Source: an archaeon (GTDB lineage Archaea; Nanobdellota; Nanobdellia; Pacearchaeales; GW2011-AR1). From it: a stretch of DNA of 64,000 nt. The notes under the pieces were generated by a model, which was not told where the DNA came from, did not search any database, and saw only the letters and a list, made by a program, of their open reading frames with translations. The position numbers and the translations under genes are program-made. The stretch lies in assembly GCA_018694115.1 (NCBI GenBank), contig JABHNB010000012.1, positions 1 through 64,000 of the forward strand, written 5' to 3'. Shown piece by piece: positions 18,584-38,172 of the stretch (the first letter of the stretch is position 1; each line of letters starts with the position of its first letter).

Positions 18584-18913
18584 CTACTTCTTCTCATCAG
18601 TTGCCCATCGACTCATGAACATCAAAAAGAGAACTCCAACAACTGTTAATATCAAAGCAGAAATCACATTATAAAAAATAAGGCCAGATGCGCCCATATT
18701 CTTTGCTAGAAGATCTACCAGATTTGTAATGGGTTCTCTCCAGGAAAACGCCATCAGAAATCCAAATGCCGCAGAAACTGCAACTAACAATTGTTTCTTG
18801 AACTCCTTCTTAAATTCAGAAGCATGTTTCTTAGCCCTAATATATAATCTATGTCTAACTTCTTTTTCTACTGCTTTCTTTTCCTTCTTATTCAAAACTA
18901 TCTCTGCCATCAC
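18584..18913 (-). CDS. DUF5654-like small membrane protein
   Basis: FKKQLLVAVSAAFGFLMAFSWREPITNLVD plus a second TM. Confidence 0.6.
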   Translation of the reverse strand: MMAEIVLNKKEKKAVEKEVRHRLYIRAKKHASEFKKEFKKQLLVAVSAAFGFLMAFSWREPITNLVDLLAKNMGASGLIFYNVISALILTVVGVLFLMFMSRWATDEKK

Positions 18914-19015
18914 AAAATATCAAAAAATGAATATATAAAGCTAACCAATTCTAAACCATTTCTTCAACTCAACTTGCTTTTTTCCGATACTCAAGAGGAA
19001 AACATACAAGTTGAA

Positions 19016-22000
19016 CTAGAACCACTTTTTTAGTTCAACCTGCTTCTCATTATCTTTCCCAAAGATACTCTCTATGTACATCTTAGTCAACTCAATACCT
19101 TCCTTAGTATATGCTGCAATATTATAATTCTCTGCTAGATCTAATGCGGGATCAAGATATTTCTTAATCGAACCCTCACTTATTGTAAAGATTATCTTCC
19201 CCTTACAATTTGTACATATCCCTGAAAGAGGGGGTCGTCTAAACTTTTCATTACAAGCAACACACCTAAACTGCTGCTGAGCAAACTTTCTCAAATTACC
19301 TCGAATATCCCTAATGAAATGTCTCTCAATAATCAATCTAGCAACATCTTCAGTATCCACCGCACGAATCTTCCCCACCAATTCCATCTGACTTCCAACC
19401 TTATCTTTCATCGTAGGTAGAATCTTATACGCCCCGTTCAAAACACCCAAATTAAAATTACTAGAATCATGTGTGAATCCTGTACAAGTAAATGGACTAG
19501 TCCCTGCAACCAATCTATCCTGAACTGTTTCAATCTTACATTCACTAGAATGTTTTCTCTGTTCAGCCAATTCATAAACTTCCAAAGGATAGTGGTCAGA
19601 CAATTCAAATGTCAAAATCTGATCATCCACCTCTCCAGCACGAATATGTGCATTCAAAACTAAGGGGGCATCCTGGGTTCCACCACGATGAGAAGGTAAA
19701 AATTTCCTAGAGAAATTCAAAAGAACGTCCATCAACATCATCACCGCAGCCTCATCCCCATCACAATCTCTACGCATTGCTGCGTGCATATAGGGAGAAG
19801 CAGTCAATCCTTGCAAATGGTTAAATCCTACAATCCTTCCAATCACCCCAGCACAATTATGGGGAGCCATACATGCAACTAACTGCCCAACCAAATCTTC
19901 TTTAGATTTCAAATTATAATATCTGGGAAGCCCATAAAATTTTTCTAATTCTTCATCAACAAAATTAGCAATATTAAAGAAAACATCATCTGCTTTTTCA
20001 TCATGAGTTACAGGACAAGACGGCAAAACAACATCATGAGGCCGAAGTTCCAAAATCTGATCTTCCATTTCCAGAATCTCTCCATAAATATCTTGCACAT
20101 ATCCTAACTCTTTCAACTTCTCAACAGAAGTTCCAATCTCTACAGGTTTAAAATGAGTAAGGGGAATCTCAGTCCCATCATATCTTATAGTTCCATCCTT
20201 ATTCACACAAAGATTATACTTAGACCTAAGAATTCCCTTAGCCAAGTTTTCAAAATCATGATCTTCAGAAGAAGTTCCTCTAATTCCCTTGATTAATGGA
20301 GGTACTTCATAGGATTTATATCCAATTAATTCCATTGCTTTTTTGAAATAGTGTTTACTATCAATACTCCGGAAAGTATAGGCATTACTCCCATGTTCTT
20401 CACAGGGTTCATCCATCACCTTAGAACAATCCCTACAATAATATTTTCTAACAGTCTTCTTCCCACATTTATCACAAGTAGAATAAATAGATTCATTTCC
20501 ACACTCACAATGAAATAAAGGCCACTGAGATTTTATATATCCTACATTGACTGCCGCTTGAACACTTCGAAGTCGGCCACCCTGGTCAGAGATTGGAAAA
20601 AGTACACTCGGGCTTCCAGTTAACTTTCTAAGCTTTGCTTTTTCAGGACGACCCATCCTAGTCCCAATAAAATCTCCTGCCTTATCTTTAATTAGATATT
20701 TAGAAAGAGAATCTACAATCTCCAATACATCTTCTTTGGACAAACTTTCCTTATTGCTAATAATTCTTCCAACCTCTTCCTTCAAAACAGTTCCATCCCC
20801 AATAAACTCAAATCCTAAATTAACCAATAAAGCTTCGGCATCTCTTGAAATAACAACATTGTCAAAGACTACATCGTGTTCTATTCCTAAAATTTCCAAA
20901 GCTCTTTTAGCCTCAGAAAATTTCTCACGAACCGAACTTTCCCACGGAAGAACCAACTTACCATTCTCTCCACTCCCTCTCCAAATAGCATTCTGTAACC
21001 AATCCATTAACCAATAAAAGTCATCTACAGAAATTTGATTCCAATAAAAGATATGCATAGGATGTAGGGGTAAGGAATATCTTTCAGAAATTTCCATAGC
21101 TTTTCTCAAAGGAACTTTTCGAATATGATTATAAAAATTTGAAATCTTTTCACCAGTAACATCTAATTTTTTCTTCAATTCTAATTCCCACCACTCTTCA
21201 ACATAACCAGGTTTCAATAACTCCGCATTACGATCTATAACATCACTTAAGGGAAATAAAATATCTCCAAGATAAATAATCTCTTCAACTTCATCATATA
21301 TATCTTTAGATTTTTCAAAATCATTAATTCGTTTCACAGAACCATTTTTCAATTTAACAATAGGGCCATCAATAGAATCGCATGAAGTAATAATGCATCC
21401 CTTAGTAGGTTTTTCAATTTTCAATTGAGTTCCATGAGATAAAAATCCATTTGTAATTCCCATAGTAGCAGGATGGATTGAAACTGCAGAAAACCCTGCA
21501 ACCCTAGACCTACCATATCTAAACCTGAATCCTCCCGCACGAGAAGGATGGCCATAAACTGGACGTCCAGCAACTAAATCCTTAATATATGTCGCAACAA
21601 CATCTCCACTTCCCTTCTCTCTCTTTGCATGAATCTCTAAATATTCATCAAGAAAATCAAATCCTTCACATTTCATCCCCGCTTTCTTTGGAGATTGTAA
21701 TCTCTTAACACCCTTAGCTGCCTTCTGGGCAAGCCCTTCAGAGAAAGTTAAACACATTCCACCACGAATAAAATTAGAGGGGACTCTCTCAAGATCCTTA
21801 TAGTTAGAAACCTCTCTTTTCTCAGTAGGATCTCCAGAAATTTGGATGGGAAGGTTCTTTGCAAGAAAAGTCATTTCTTCTTCAGTAGGAAAATATTGTA
21901 AATTGGTAACTCTCTCATGATAATCTGTATTCTCAGTCACATATCTCTTAATTTCCTGATCACTAGGATCATATTTAGCATAACCAAAGTGATCCCTGAG

Positions 22001-22525
22001 ATAATCTATTAACATCAATACAACACATGTGGCAGTAGTTCCTGCAGAACGAATAGGTCCTGAAAAATTAGCAATAAAATATTCTTTCCCATCGCGAGTC
22101 TTACCAATATCTATACCAGTATAACCTTCAATTGGAGAAGCTACAACACCTAAAGTAATATACGCAAAGCCCACACGGATCCCTGCATCAATCGCTTCGA
22201 GTTGATCCTTAAACTTACAAAACTTTTCTTCAGCAATTTCCCTAGCAATAGCAAAACTAACCGAAGTATCTAACTGCCCAAACTCTTCTTCCAACTCAAG
22301 CATCCTTTTAGTGATCTCAACAATCGGCAAATCTGGATAAATAGTAGTAATCAATCCAACAGACTTCTCTGCCATAGTCATTGCCAGAGGAATCTCAACA
22401 TGATCTTCAGGATCAAGACCTTTAGCCCGGGCAGCATTAGCCACCCCATATTCTTTCTTCACCCCCTCACTGATTTTATCAAAATATCCCTCAACATTCC
22501 AATTACATTTCTCACTAATTTCCAT
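19016..22525 (-). CDS. polC: Family D DNA polymerase large subunit DP2, with C-terminal PIP-box (QVELKKWF)
   Basis: 1169 aa; MHAAMRRDCDGDEAAVMMLMD catalytic region; zinc-binding CECGNESIYSTCDKCGKK and CVACNEKFRRPPLSGICTNCKGK. Confidence 0.97.
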   Translation of the reverse strand: MEISEKCNWNVEGYFDKISEGVKKEYGVANAARAKGLDPEDHVEIPLAMTMAEKSVGLITTIYPDLPIVEITKRMLELEEEFGQLDTSVSFAIAREIAEEKFCKFKDQLEAIDAGIRVGFAYITLGVVASPIEGYTGIDIGKTRDGKEYFIANFSGPIRSAGTTATCVVLMLIDYLRDHFGYAKYDPSDQEIKRYVTENTDYHERVTNLQYFPTEEEMTFLAKNLPIQISGDPTEKREVSNYKDLERVPSNFIRGGMCLTFSEGLAQKAAKGVKRLQSPKKAGMKCEGFDFLDEYLEIHAKREKGSGDVVATYIKDLVAGRPVYGHPSRAGGFRFRYGRSRVAGFSAVSIHPATMGITNGFLSHGTQLKIEKPTKGCIITSCDSIDGPIVKLKNGSVKRINDFEKSKDIYDEVEEIIYLGDILFPLSDVIDRNAELLKPGYVEEWWELELKKKLDVTGEKISNFYNHIRKVPLRKAMEISERYSLPLHPMHIFYWNQISVDDFYWLMDWLQNAIWRGSGENGKLVLPWESSVREKFSEAKRALEILGIEHDVVFDNVVISRDAEALLVNLGFEFIGDGTVLKEEVGRIISNKESLSKEDVLEIVDSLSKYLIKDKAGDFIGTRMGRPEKAKLRKLTGSPSVLFPISDQGGRLRSVQAAVNVGYIKSQWPLFHCECGNESIYSTCDKCGKKTVRKYYCRDCSKVMDEPCEEHGSNAYTFRSIDSKHYFKKAMELIGYKSYEVPPLIKGIRGTSSEDHDFENLAKGILRSKYNLCVNKDGTIRYDGTEIPLTHFKPVEIGTSVEKLKELGYVQDIYGEILEMEDQILELRPHDVVLPSCPVTHDEKADDVFFNIANFVDEELEKFYGLPRYYNLKSKEDLVGQLVACMAPHNCAGVIGRIVGFNHLQGLTASPYMHAAMRRDCDGDEAAVMMLMDVLLNFSRKFLPSHRGGTQDAPLVLNAHIRAGEVDDQILTFELSDHYPLEVYELAEQRKHSSECKIETVQDRLVAGTSPFTCTGFTHDSSNFNLGVLNGAYKILPTMKDKVGSQMELVGKIRAVDTEDVARLIIERHFIRDIRGNLRKFAQQQFRCVACNEKFRRPPLSGICTNCKGKIIFTISEGSIKKYLDPALDLAENYNIAAYTKEGIELTKMYIESIFGKDNEKQVELKKWF

Positions 22526-29529: not shown

Positions 29530-30015
29530 ATGATATCTAAAGATTGGTTTATAGGATTTATTGAAGGCGAAGGAAATTTTAATATATCTCTTTCAAAGGC
29601 CCTAATGAAAAAGTCAAAAAGTTACCTATTTGAATTTTATCCAATTTTACAATTCAGAATATTTCTTCGAGAAGACGACAAAGAAGCACTAGAAAAAATA
29701 AAAAACTTCGTCGGTGTAGGCAAAATTTATAAAAAAAGTTACAAATATTCCCGAAAAAAAGGCGTAAACTCTCAGGATCAGTATGTTTATATGATAACCT
29801 CTATTAAAAATCTACTTGTCCTAAAAGAGCTCCTTATTTCTTCTAATTTTCATACTAAAAAGAAAAAAGATATGGAAATTTTCTTTAAAGTTTTAGATTT
29901 AAAAATTGAAAAAAAACACTTAACTCTCGACGGTTACAACGAAATTATGGCCTTAGTTGCTAATCTAAATAGTCTGAATAGGGAAAACTTTCGAGTTAAA
30001 CCGGTAACCGAATAA
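29530..30015 (+). CDS. LAGLIDADG-family homing endonuclease (free-standing)
   Basis: WFIGFIEGEGNFNISL motif; LQFRIFLREDDKEALEKIKNFVGVGKIY. Confidence 0.85.
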   Translation: MISKDWFIGFIEGEGNFNISLSKALMKKSKSYLFEFYPILQFRIFLREDDKEALEKIKNFVGVGKIYKKSYKYSRKKGVNSQDQYVYMITSIKNLLVLKELLISSNFHTKKKKDMEIFFKVLDLKIEKKHLTLDGYNEIMALVANLNSLNRENFRVKPVTE

Positions 30016-36061: not shown

Positions 36062-36901
36062 ATGGATAATCAAGAATTTCTTAAGAAAATTGAAGTAGAA
36101 TTAAAAATTTCGAAAAATTCAATATACACCATTCGTAATTATCTTCGTGCGAACAATGATCTCCTATCCTTTGTAGACAAAACTCCAGACCAGATTACCG
36201 AAGACGATGTCAAGATGTTCATGGCCGAGAATCTTTCAGATAAGGCTTCTTCTTCAATTATATTGTTCTTGGCGGCAGTAAAATATGCTTATGTTTCAAT
36301 ATTAAAAAAGGACATAACTTCCTCGATAAGACGTCCAAAGAAAGAAAGAAGGATTCCAACAGTGCTTAGTAAGGAGGAAATTAAAAAACTATTCGGGGCA
36401 ATTAGCACTGCAAAATCAAAGCTCATGATATCTCTAATGTATGCTTGTGGGTTCAGAGTATCTGAATTAACAAGCTTAAAGATTAAGGATTTAGATTTTG
36501 AAGAAAGAATAGGGCACGTTCGTCAAGCAAAAGGAAGGAAGGACAGAATTTTTAATATCCCTGTTTTCCTCTTTAGCGATATAAAAAAATTGGCAGAGTA
36601 TCAGGAAGAATCCGGGAACGAACACCTTTTTACAAATCCTACAACCGGAAAAGGCCTTTCAACAAGAAACCTACAGAAAATGGTATCTTCTGCAGCTAAA
36701 AGGGCGGGGATAAAAAAAGATGTTCACTGCCATACTCTCCGCCACAGTTTTGCTACACACCTTCTAGAAAATAATGTAGATATAAGAAAGATACAGGAGC
36801 TTCTTGGACATGCAGATTTATCCACAACCCAAATATATACCCACATATCTACTGAAGAGCTCAAAAAAATCCCCAGCCCCTTGGATGGCCTGATGAATTA
36901 A
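36062..36901 (+). CDS. xerA: Tyrosine recombinase, archaeal XerA-like
   Basis: ACGFRVSELTSLKIKDLD, HTLRHSFATHLLENNVDIRKIQELLGHADLSTTQIYTH catalytic R-HxxR-H-Y. Confidence 0.9.
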   Translation: MDNQEFLKKIEVELKISKNSIYTIRNYLRANNDLLSFVDKTPDQITEDDVKMFMAENLSDKASSSIILFLAAVKYAYVSILKKDITSSIRRPKKERRIPTVLSKEEIKKLFGAISTAKSKLMISLMYACGFRVSELTSLKIKDLDFEERIGHVRQAKGRKDRIFNIPVFLFSDIKKLAEYQEESGNEHLFTNPTTGKGLSTRNLQKMVSSAAKRAGIKKDVHCHTLRHSFATHLLENNVDIRKIQELLGHADLSTTQIYTHISTEELKKIPSPLDGLMN

Positions 36902-37617: not shown

Positions 37618-38172
37618 ATGACTTGTGAAAAATGCGGATATCAGGATAAAAGAGAGGTAGATATTTTTGGAAGAAAGCTTTGCGGAGTTTGTGCCCATTT
37701 TTCTCCAGAAGATAAGGGGGACTGCTTCAATTACATTGCAGAAAAGATAGATTGGAAGATATTAGACACTTTTAGGAAATATAAACAGCTTCCTGGAGGG
37801 AAACAAAAATCTGGAATGTCCCGGAAAGCGGAACAGGGAAGGCCAGTAACAAGAGCTCCGTTAGGATATAATATCGTAGGAGGAAAACTGACCACAAACC
37901 AAGATTCTGCAAGAGTTCATTCATTATTCAAAACATTTCTCAGCAGAGAGTACTCTCTAAATTCTTTATCCAAAAACTTTGGTCTATCTATAAATGGTCT
38001 TAAAAAAGTTCTAACAAATAGAACATATCTCGGAGAAATAAAATTTGATGGTAATCTCCATAAGGGAGATCACAAACAATTAATCTCTCCAGAAATTTTT
38101 TATGCCGTTCAGAGAAAGTTAAAAGATTATTTGAAACCACGAAAAGGAAATTTTACTAACAAATCTGCTTAA
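37618..38172 (+). CDS. Zinc-finger plus serine-recombinase Recombinase domain protein lacking the catalytic resolvase domain
   Basis: N-term CEKCGYQ...CGVC; RKAEQGRPVTRAPLGYNIVGGKL...RVHSLFKTFLSREYSLNSLSKNFG...VLTNRTYLGEIKFDG...LISPEIFYAVQRKL. Confidence 0.75.
   Translation: MTCEKCGYQDKREVDIFGRKLCGVCAHFSPEDKGDCFNYIAEKIDWKILDTFRKYKQLPGGKQKSGMSRKAEQGRPVTRAPLGYNIVGGKLTTNQDSARVHSLFKTFLSREYSLNSLSKNFGLSINGLKKVLTNRTYLGEIKFDGNLHKGDHKQLISPEIFYAVQRKLKDYLKPRKGNFTNKSA

Follow-up and report, generated by a model that had tools for sequence, protein, structure and literature searches.

Gene end of DP2 at the focal locus

The DNA analyzed here (the window) comprises the first 64,000 nucleotides of contig JABHNB010000012.1 (assembly GCA_018694115.1), from a small-genome archaeon of the Pacearchaeales. 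Its minus strand carries the gene for DP2 (PolC), the large subunit of DNA polymerase D, with the Pfam PolC_DP2_N, central and cat domains all matched. The protein ends in ..ESIFGKDNEKQVELKKWF followed by TAG, and this C-terminus contains the PIP (PCNA-interacting peptide) box QVELKKWF. An earlier note, made from the sequence alone, had reported that the same frame continues beyond the stop with FNLYVFLLSIGKKQVELKKWFRIG, again followed by TAG, and that KQVELKKWF recurs there with six of its nine codons changed. Both statements were confirmed. The features of the locus are as follows:

19016 to 22525, minus strand: DP2 (PolC) open reading frame (ORF), with PIP box QVELKKWF and stop TAG at 19016-19018 (Pfam PF03833, PF24844, PF24846)
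19019 to 19045, minus strand: A1, the coding copy of KQVELKKWF and present gene end, with codons (CTA, TTC) less usual than those of A2
19028 to 19042, minus strand: X, left arm of an inverted repeat, within the QVEL codons of A1
19007 to 19021, minus strand: X', right arm, running from the last Phe codon through the stop codon into the bases just beyond it; complementary to X at 13 of 15 positions
18980 to 19002, minus strand: second hairpin, TTTTCC-TCTTGAGTATC-GGAAAA, between the copies (fold z -4.6)
18953 to 18979, minus strand: A2, the second KQVELKKWF copy, in frame with A1; here read as the displaced, untranslated native 3' end, a polarity shown at homologous layouts in genome G127
18941 to 18952, minus strand: extension RIG after A2 and its TAG (18941-18943)
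About 18929 to 18940, minus strand: TATA-like stretch ahead of the DUF5654 gene, a promoter reading made by eye
18584 to 18913, minus strand: ORF for a DUF5654 membrane protein, the next gene downstream

A1 reads AAG CAG GTT GAA CTA AAA AAG TGG TTC and A2 reads AAG CAA GTT GAG TTG AAG AAA TGG TTT. The two differ at 7 nt, all of them transitions. The earlier note called the differences mainly synonymous, which understated them: all six changed codons are silent and there is no replacement. If seven changes are placed randomly in 27 nt, the computed probability that all are silent is about 1e-5. In a de novo scan of 459 ORF ends in 424 kb of the source genome, including 360 kb of stretches read for the scan, DP2 was the top match of a C-terminus to its own downstream 260 nt. 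The native stop after A2 was apparently lost through a small change, giving the RIG extension.

The copies are separated by about 37 nt of hairpin sequence without any gene. The DP2 stop codon lies inside the inverted repeat, whose arms are CAGGTTGAACTAAAA, in the last codons, and TTCTAGTTCAACTTG, which spans the stop. The first nine bases of X' past the stop pair with A2 too, and X' can pair with either copy. As single-stranded DNA the stretch folds well below shuffled energies (z -3.6), as does the downstream hairpin alone. The order is A1 (the gene end, stop included), X' (A1 codons in inverted orientation), the hairpin and A2 (second gene end). The earlier note had missed the stop-spanning inverted repeat and the second hairpin; it had also aligned SI-GK upstream of A2, and although the letters do match (GAGTATC, GGAAA), they lie inside the hairpin, so that this alignment is ambiguous. 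Hairpins resembling the second one were found at the DP2 ends of G004 and G012, and a single match with 3 mismatches elsewhere in the source genome, in a pilin gene, points weakly to a second genomic copy. An Rfam search of the focal locus gave nothing close to a gathering score.

Duplicated gene ends in relatives and in the source genome

The named relatives found through DP2 (about 58-64% identical) were mostly Candidatus Pacearchaeota. DP2 was located in 53 of 57 relatives and 132 of 141 family genomes, which are metagenome assemblies. In most orthologues the C-terminus is a PIP box and no second copy follows. A direct repeat of the gene's own 3' end within 250 nt (p<0.01) was found at 11 of 150 loci against 1.5 expected, a few of the 11 being low-complexity matches away from the PIP box, and a protein-level second end (p<0.002) at 6 of 150 against 0.3 expected. 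None of the 56 other window genes reached p<0.025 in the direct-repeat test. About 10 of 150 relatives carry a second copy of their own DP2 end; these copies include one identical at 60 of 60 nt and lying 43 nt downstream (G172), one in which KQESIQKWF is encoded twice with only silent differences (G107), another clear case in G111, and those of G090 and G072, where one common hairpin separates the copies. Only about half of the second copies were in frame (offsets 33, 102, 144, 18 and 33, versus 71, 53, 34, 46 and 26 out of frame), in some relatives they lay behind further stops, and neither start codons nor frames were conserved across cases. None of the other genomes in the set of 187 family genomes matched the focal insert itself. 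Since the layout recurs in many independent assemblies, assembly error is unlikely as its general cause, single loci each being less secure.

Apparent distant copies at L015, L009 and L016, which fall in or close to a PHP-domain DnaE-like gene further downstream, were attributed to chance, and an apparent second DP2 tail at L068 is a contig-end overlap with L065. The PHP-domain gene, which resembles the start of bacterial DnaE, stands near DP2 in three genomes of the genus (G015, G009 and G008). Assemblies break less than about 50 nt from the DP2 stop at the contig ends of L058, L065, L102 (G082), L130 (G164) and L134 (G081), which may reflect strain variation or repeats there. In G005 (L004), 30-250 nt downstream of DP2, a block starting TTTCAATTTCACAGCAGCTCCGTAAGCAACATCAAAGATGTAGC occurs in at least three near copies. 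In G109 (L175, G109:C37), PIN-like and UPF0175 genes, a toxin-antitoxin-like pair, lie between DP2-end copies that agree at 29 of 30 nt, about 0-900 nt past the DP2 stop.

The hairpin common to G072 and G090 has the core YCCAAGCGTGGYC and the outer stem TTCATTCG..CAAATGAA, and is dispersed in several family genomes of sister genera. Gene-end copies flank this dispersed hairpin at rpS9, FEN1, aIF5A, LeuRS, rpS19e, a Pop5-like gene and a pilin gene. In G072, rpS9 encodes KRQSSKR twice (AAG AGA CAA TCA AGT AAA CGT TGA and AAG AGG CAG AGT TCT AAG AGA TAG), aIF5A encodes KLIKRKL twice with all codons changed, and FEN1 has two PIP ends; in G093, KPGIYLE of LeuRS and KEVLVF of the pilin each occur twice. 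The rpS19e and Pop5-like genes of G127 and a RuBisCO gene of G116 also have duplicated ends. Pfam supported the assignments of rpS9, FEN1, aIF5A, rpS19e and OapC, the Pop5-like assignment was below cut-off (Pop8 family), and LeuRS, RuBisCO, rpL24, rpL31e and pilin were named by eye. The process, which the earlier note had not seen beyond DP2, is not specific to that gene: the layout recurs at many essential genes of related small archaea.

Twelve of 51 hairpin copies were above the 99% level of mismatched flank pairs, 5 of the 12 being tandem or in-element repeats. In 15 curated pairs, 67 of 84 changed codons were silent, with 26, 17 and 75 differences at codon positions 1, 2 and 3; these pairs were selected for similarity, and the figures are a description and not an unbiased test. 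Other copies of the dispersed hairpin lie in frame within genes (G127, G031, G072), there without long repeats, or form tandem arrays of 42-57 nt. A double-hairpin sequence of 55-57 nt was also noticed in or near genes of G127 and G031 (L231, L223, L239, L243, L244), in some cases in frame (peptide like NFLTNSPKRGRVK); in G031:C12 it also occurs as a tandem copy. In G093 (C201 and C122; L209 and L227) a 44-nt hairpin unit stands in tandem at the start of a gene resembling ApgM, and each unit holds a variant copy of the gene start.

In the source genome itself, 13 codons of OapC are repeated with 3 silent and no replacement differences and a hairpin between, and the 3' end of tRNA-Met is repeated over 27 nt, the T-arm standing in inverted copy between the repeats. 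By p-value the scan was near expectation (3 hits against 1.5 expected); in base-level alignments the hits are clear duplications. The genus yielded 14 OapC matches in 13 other genomes, all of them lacking the duplication. The tRNA-Met layout recurs near position 71177 of G000:C13 (L267), where GGTTCGAGT in inverted copy and a direct copy of 12 nt come after a tRNA-like 3' end.

Origin of the two copies

The native copy could be identified at two loci of G127. The rpS19e gene of this genome reads ..GGA ATC AAA TGA, then the insert, then ..AGC ATA AAA TAA AATGAC, and the uninterrupted genes of the same-genus genomes read ATA AAA TAA AATGGC (G031) and ATA AAA TAA AATGAC (G149). Because A2 and its downstream junction, ATA AAA TAA AATG, equal these uninterrupted genes, A2 is the native copy of rpS19e, joined to the next gene. 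In the Pop5-like gene, A2 (AGC GGG ACG ATT AAG) encodes SGTIK as in G031 and G149, whereas A1 encodes SGTLK, the version shared by nearly all the other genera compared. Since A1 has the residues of other genera and A2 the genus-specific ones, A1 of the Pop5-like gene probably comes from outside the genus. At rpS9, aIF5A and G090 DP2, X' agrees with A1 but not with A2, indicating that A1, X' and hairpin came as one unit. Codon usage over 12 pairs was less usual in A1 than in A2 (lnP -79 versus -65). For the focal DP2 no near relative was available, and the same polarity (A2 native, A1 foreign) is suggested by the shared anatomy; in sister comparisons at the G172 and G095 DP2 genes the downstream DNA was too diverged to polarize. 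The suggestion of the earlier note that the second copy is a leftover native 3' end thus stands in kind, from rpS19e and the Pop5-like gene of G127, and reaches the focal DP2 through that likeness.

We propose, with a probability of roughly two in three, that the downstream KQVELKKWF represents the native DP2 3' end, displaced and now untranslated, and that a short insert brought a foreign, silently different end with its own stop. The insert would consist of this foreign DP2 end, an inverted copy of part of it and the hairpin, which may be the mobile part. In a donor lineage, such a hairpin-bearing insert would have entered beside the gene end; recombination within conserved coding sequence would then have carried it from one lineage to another, the incoming end (A1) being co-converted and the recipient's own end (A2) stranded downstream. 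DP2 would now end in the incoming copy and so retain its PCNA-binding tail. Where the two copies are identical, the pair may be young or may have arisen by local duplication. Direct repeats that flank a palindrome tend to be deleted, and this would favour the survival of diverged pairs. If the proposal is correct, an insert of only a few dozen bases suffices for gene-end replacement, with consequences for the annotation of gene ends and for the reading of silent changes and horizontal transfer in these archaea, and a mobilizing enzyme would be indicated. It would also caution against taking any duplicated functional motif past a stop codon for a readthrough extension, since such a motif can be a displaced relic.

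Several observations weigh against import at DP2. Neither an empty site nor a donor was found for the focal gene among the family genomes and other DP2 tails; the best matches to A1 and A2 among those tails were 23 and 24 of 27, with no clear donor. The dispersed core YCCAAGCGTGGYC has no match in the source genome (G000), the sequence of the focal hairpin is different, and part of this hairpin could be remnant DP2 coding sequence. The codon signal of A1 is modest and derives partly from DP2 tails of mixed species. In addition, the near-identical pairs of G172 and G109 look like local duplication rather than import.

Local duplication would mean that a polymerase switched template at a fold-back and copied the DP2 end twice (A1, the inverted piece, A2), the copies later diverging in situ. 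We consider this unlikely. In its favour, an inverted piece between direct copies is the trace expected of a double template switch, and the 60-nt pair of G172, the tRNA-Met copy with its inverted piece and the OapC copies, with only 3 silent changes between them, agree with it. On the other hand, an untranslated A2 should gain replacement changes, and there are none in the focal, G107, rpS9, pilin and LeuRS pairs; X' follows A1 and not A2 in several pairs, the Pop5-like A1 carries an out-of-genus residue, and one hairpin recurs at unrelated genes. The same residue makes import simpler than a deliberate recoding of A1, which was considered as A1 and A2 share few codons. The gene 3' ends of tRNAs and proteins are classic attachment sites, and the layout could also be a scar left by an integrative element of the tyrosine-recombinase type, with the DP2 3' end as its site, as the two genes between the G109 copies might suggest. 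Such a scar is quite improbable, however, given that most inserts are only about 25-60 nt, that the focal copies have no gene between them, that a recombinase gene was in no case observed with a second copy beside it, and that other hairpin copies lie in frame inside genes without long repeats.

The two functional roles that the earlier note had offered for the second copy found little in their favour. A separate PIP micropeptide with a TTG start, binding PCNA, would account for the perfect preservation of the PIP residues in A2, but the layout is also present at genes without a PIP (rpS9, aIF5A, LeuRS, rpS19e, Pop5-like, OapC and tRNA-Met) and starts and frames are not conserved across the DP2 cases, which makes this role very improbable. 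Readthrough of UAG, yielding a DP2 with two PIP boxes, is hardly credible at all: A2 is in frame with A1 behind a single stop in the source genome, but in most DP2 orthologues the protein stops right after the PIP box and a second copy is lacking, about half of the second copies in relatives are out of frame, or they stand behind further stops, the downstream frame is not conserved across orthologues, and no PylS match above the family cut-off was found in the source genome. Comparison of the DP2 ends and downstream DNA of relatives, a check named in the earlier note, gave no conserved downstream peptide.

A bolder version of the import proposal holds that a tiny non-autonomous palindromic element spreads into essential archaeal gene ends while carrying a silently different rescue end, as a natural counterpart of home-and-rescue. 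This is doubtful. Here the hairpin and A2 might serve as scaffold and guide RNA for a nuclease supplied elsewhere and aimed at uninserted gene copies, from which the differently spelled A1 would escape.

Comparison with known systems

Tyrosine recombinases integrate elements at the 3' ends of tRNA and protein genes, the incoming copy restoring the gene end and the old end being displaced. Unlike such integrations, the focal copies enclose neither a recombinase gene nor a sizeable element. The window does contain a phage-integrase-family recombinase (36062-36901, plus strand), close to a protein with a weak serine-recombinase domain match (37618-38172, plus strand). A freestanding LAGLIDADG endonuclease gene (29530-30015, plus strand) follows a helix-turn-helix (HTH) gene, 10.5 kb from the two copies and unlinked to them; no duplicated gene end was noticed around it. 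Nothing ties this gene or the phage-integrase-family recombinase to DP2.

The C-terminal PIP box characterized in Pyrococcus DP2 (PMC7101311) has its counterpart in QVELKKWF of the source genome. The Pyrococcus protein combines an internal and a C-terminal PIP in one chain, whereas here the second copy lies past the stop. The palindromic elements of Rickettsia are dispersed and in some cases inserted in frame in protein-coding genes, keeping the frame open (PMC10969869), like the copies of the core element within G127, G031 and G072 genes. Unlike the archaeal hairpins, they are about 150 bp long, and that paper does not say that they carry or duplicate gene ends.

A search of an open-access library found no account of archaeal elements of this kind, and the nearest precedent is the mobile-ORF insertions of fungal mitochondria. 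In Glomus (atp6, atp9, cox2, nad3) and Allomyces (atp6), the gene receives a foreign C-terminus from an insert that carries an endonuclease, and its own C-terminus is displaced; in Glomus atp6, identity to the sister species is about 91% for the native end and about 64% for the inserted one (PMC3630166). As in these fungi, a probably foreign and largely silently different end is joined to the archaeal gene with the native end downstream, and at rpS19e and the Pop5-like gene of G127 the displaced copy matches sister species. We do not file the archaeal case as a member of that group: the fungal inserts carry an endonuclease gene of several hundred bases and the archaeal one is a hairpin of a few dozen bases without a gene, set in chromosomes and at many nuclear-type housekeeping genes. 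If our proposal holds, the replacement of essential gene ends by mobile inserts, known from fungal mitochondria, would also take place in archaeal chromosomes, and at many genes.
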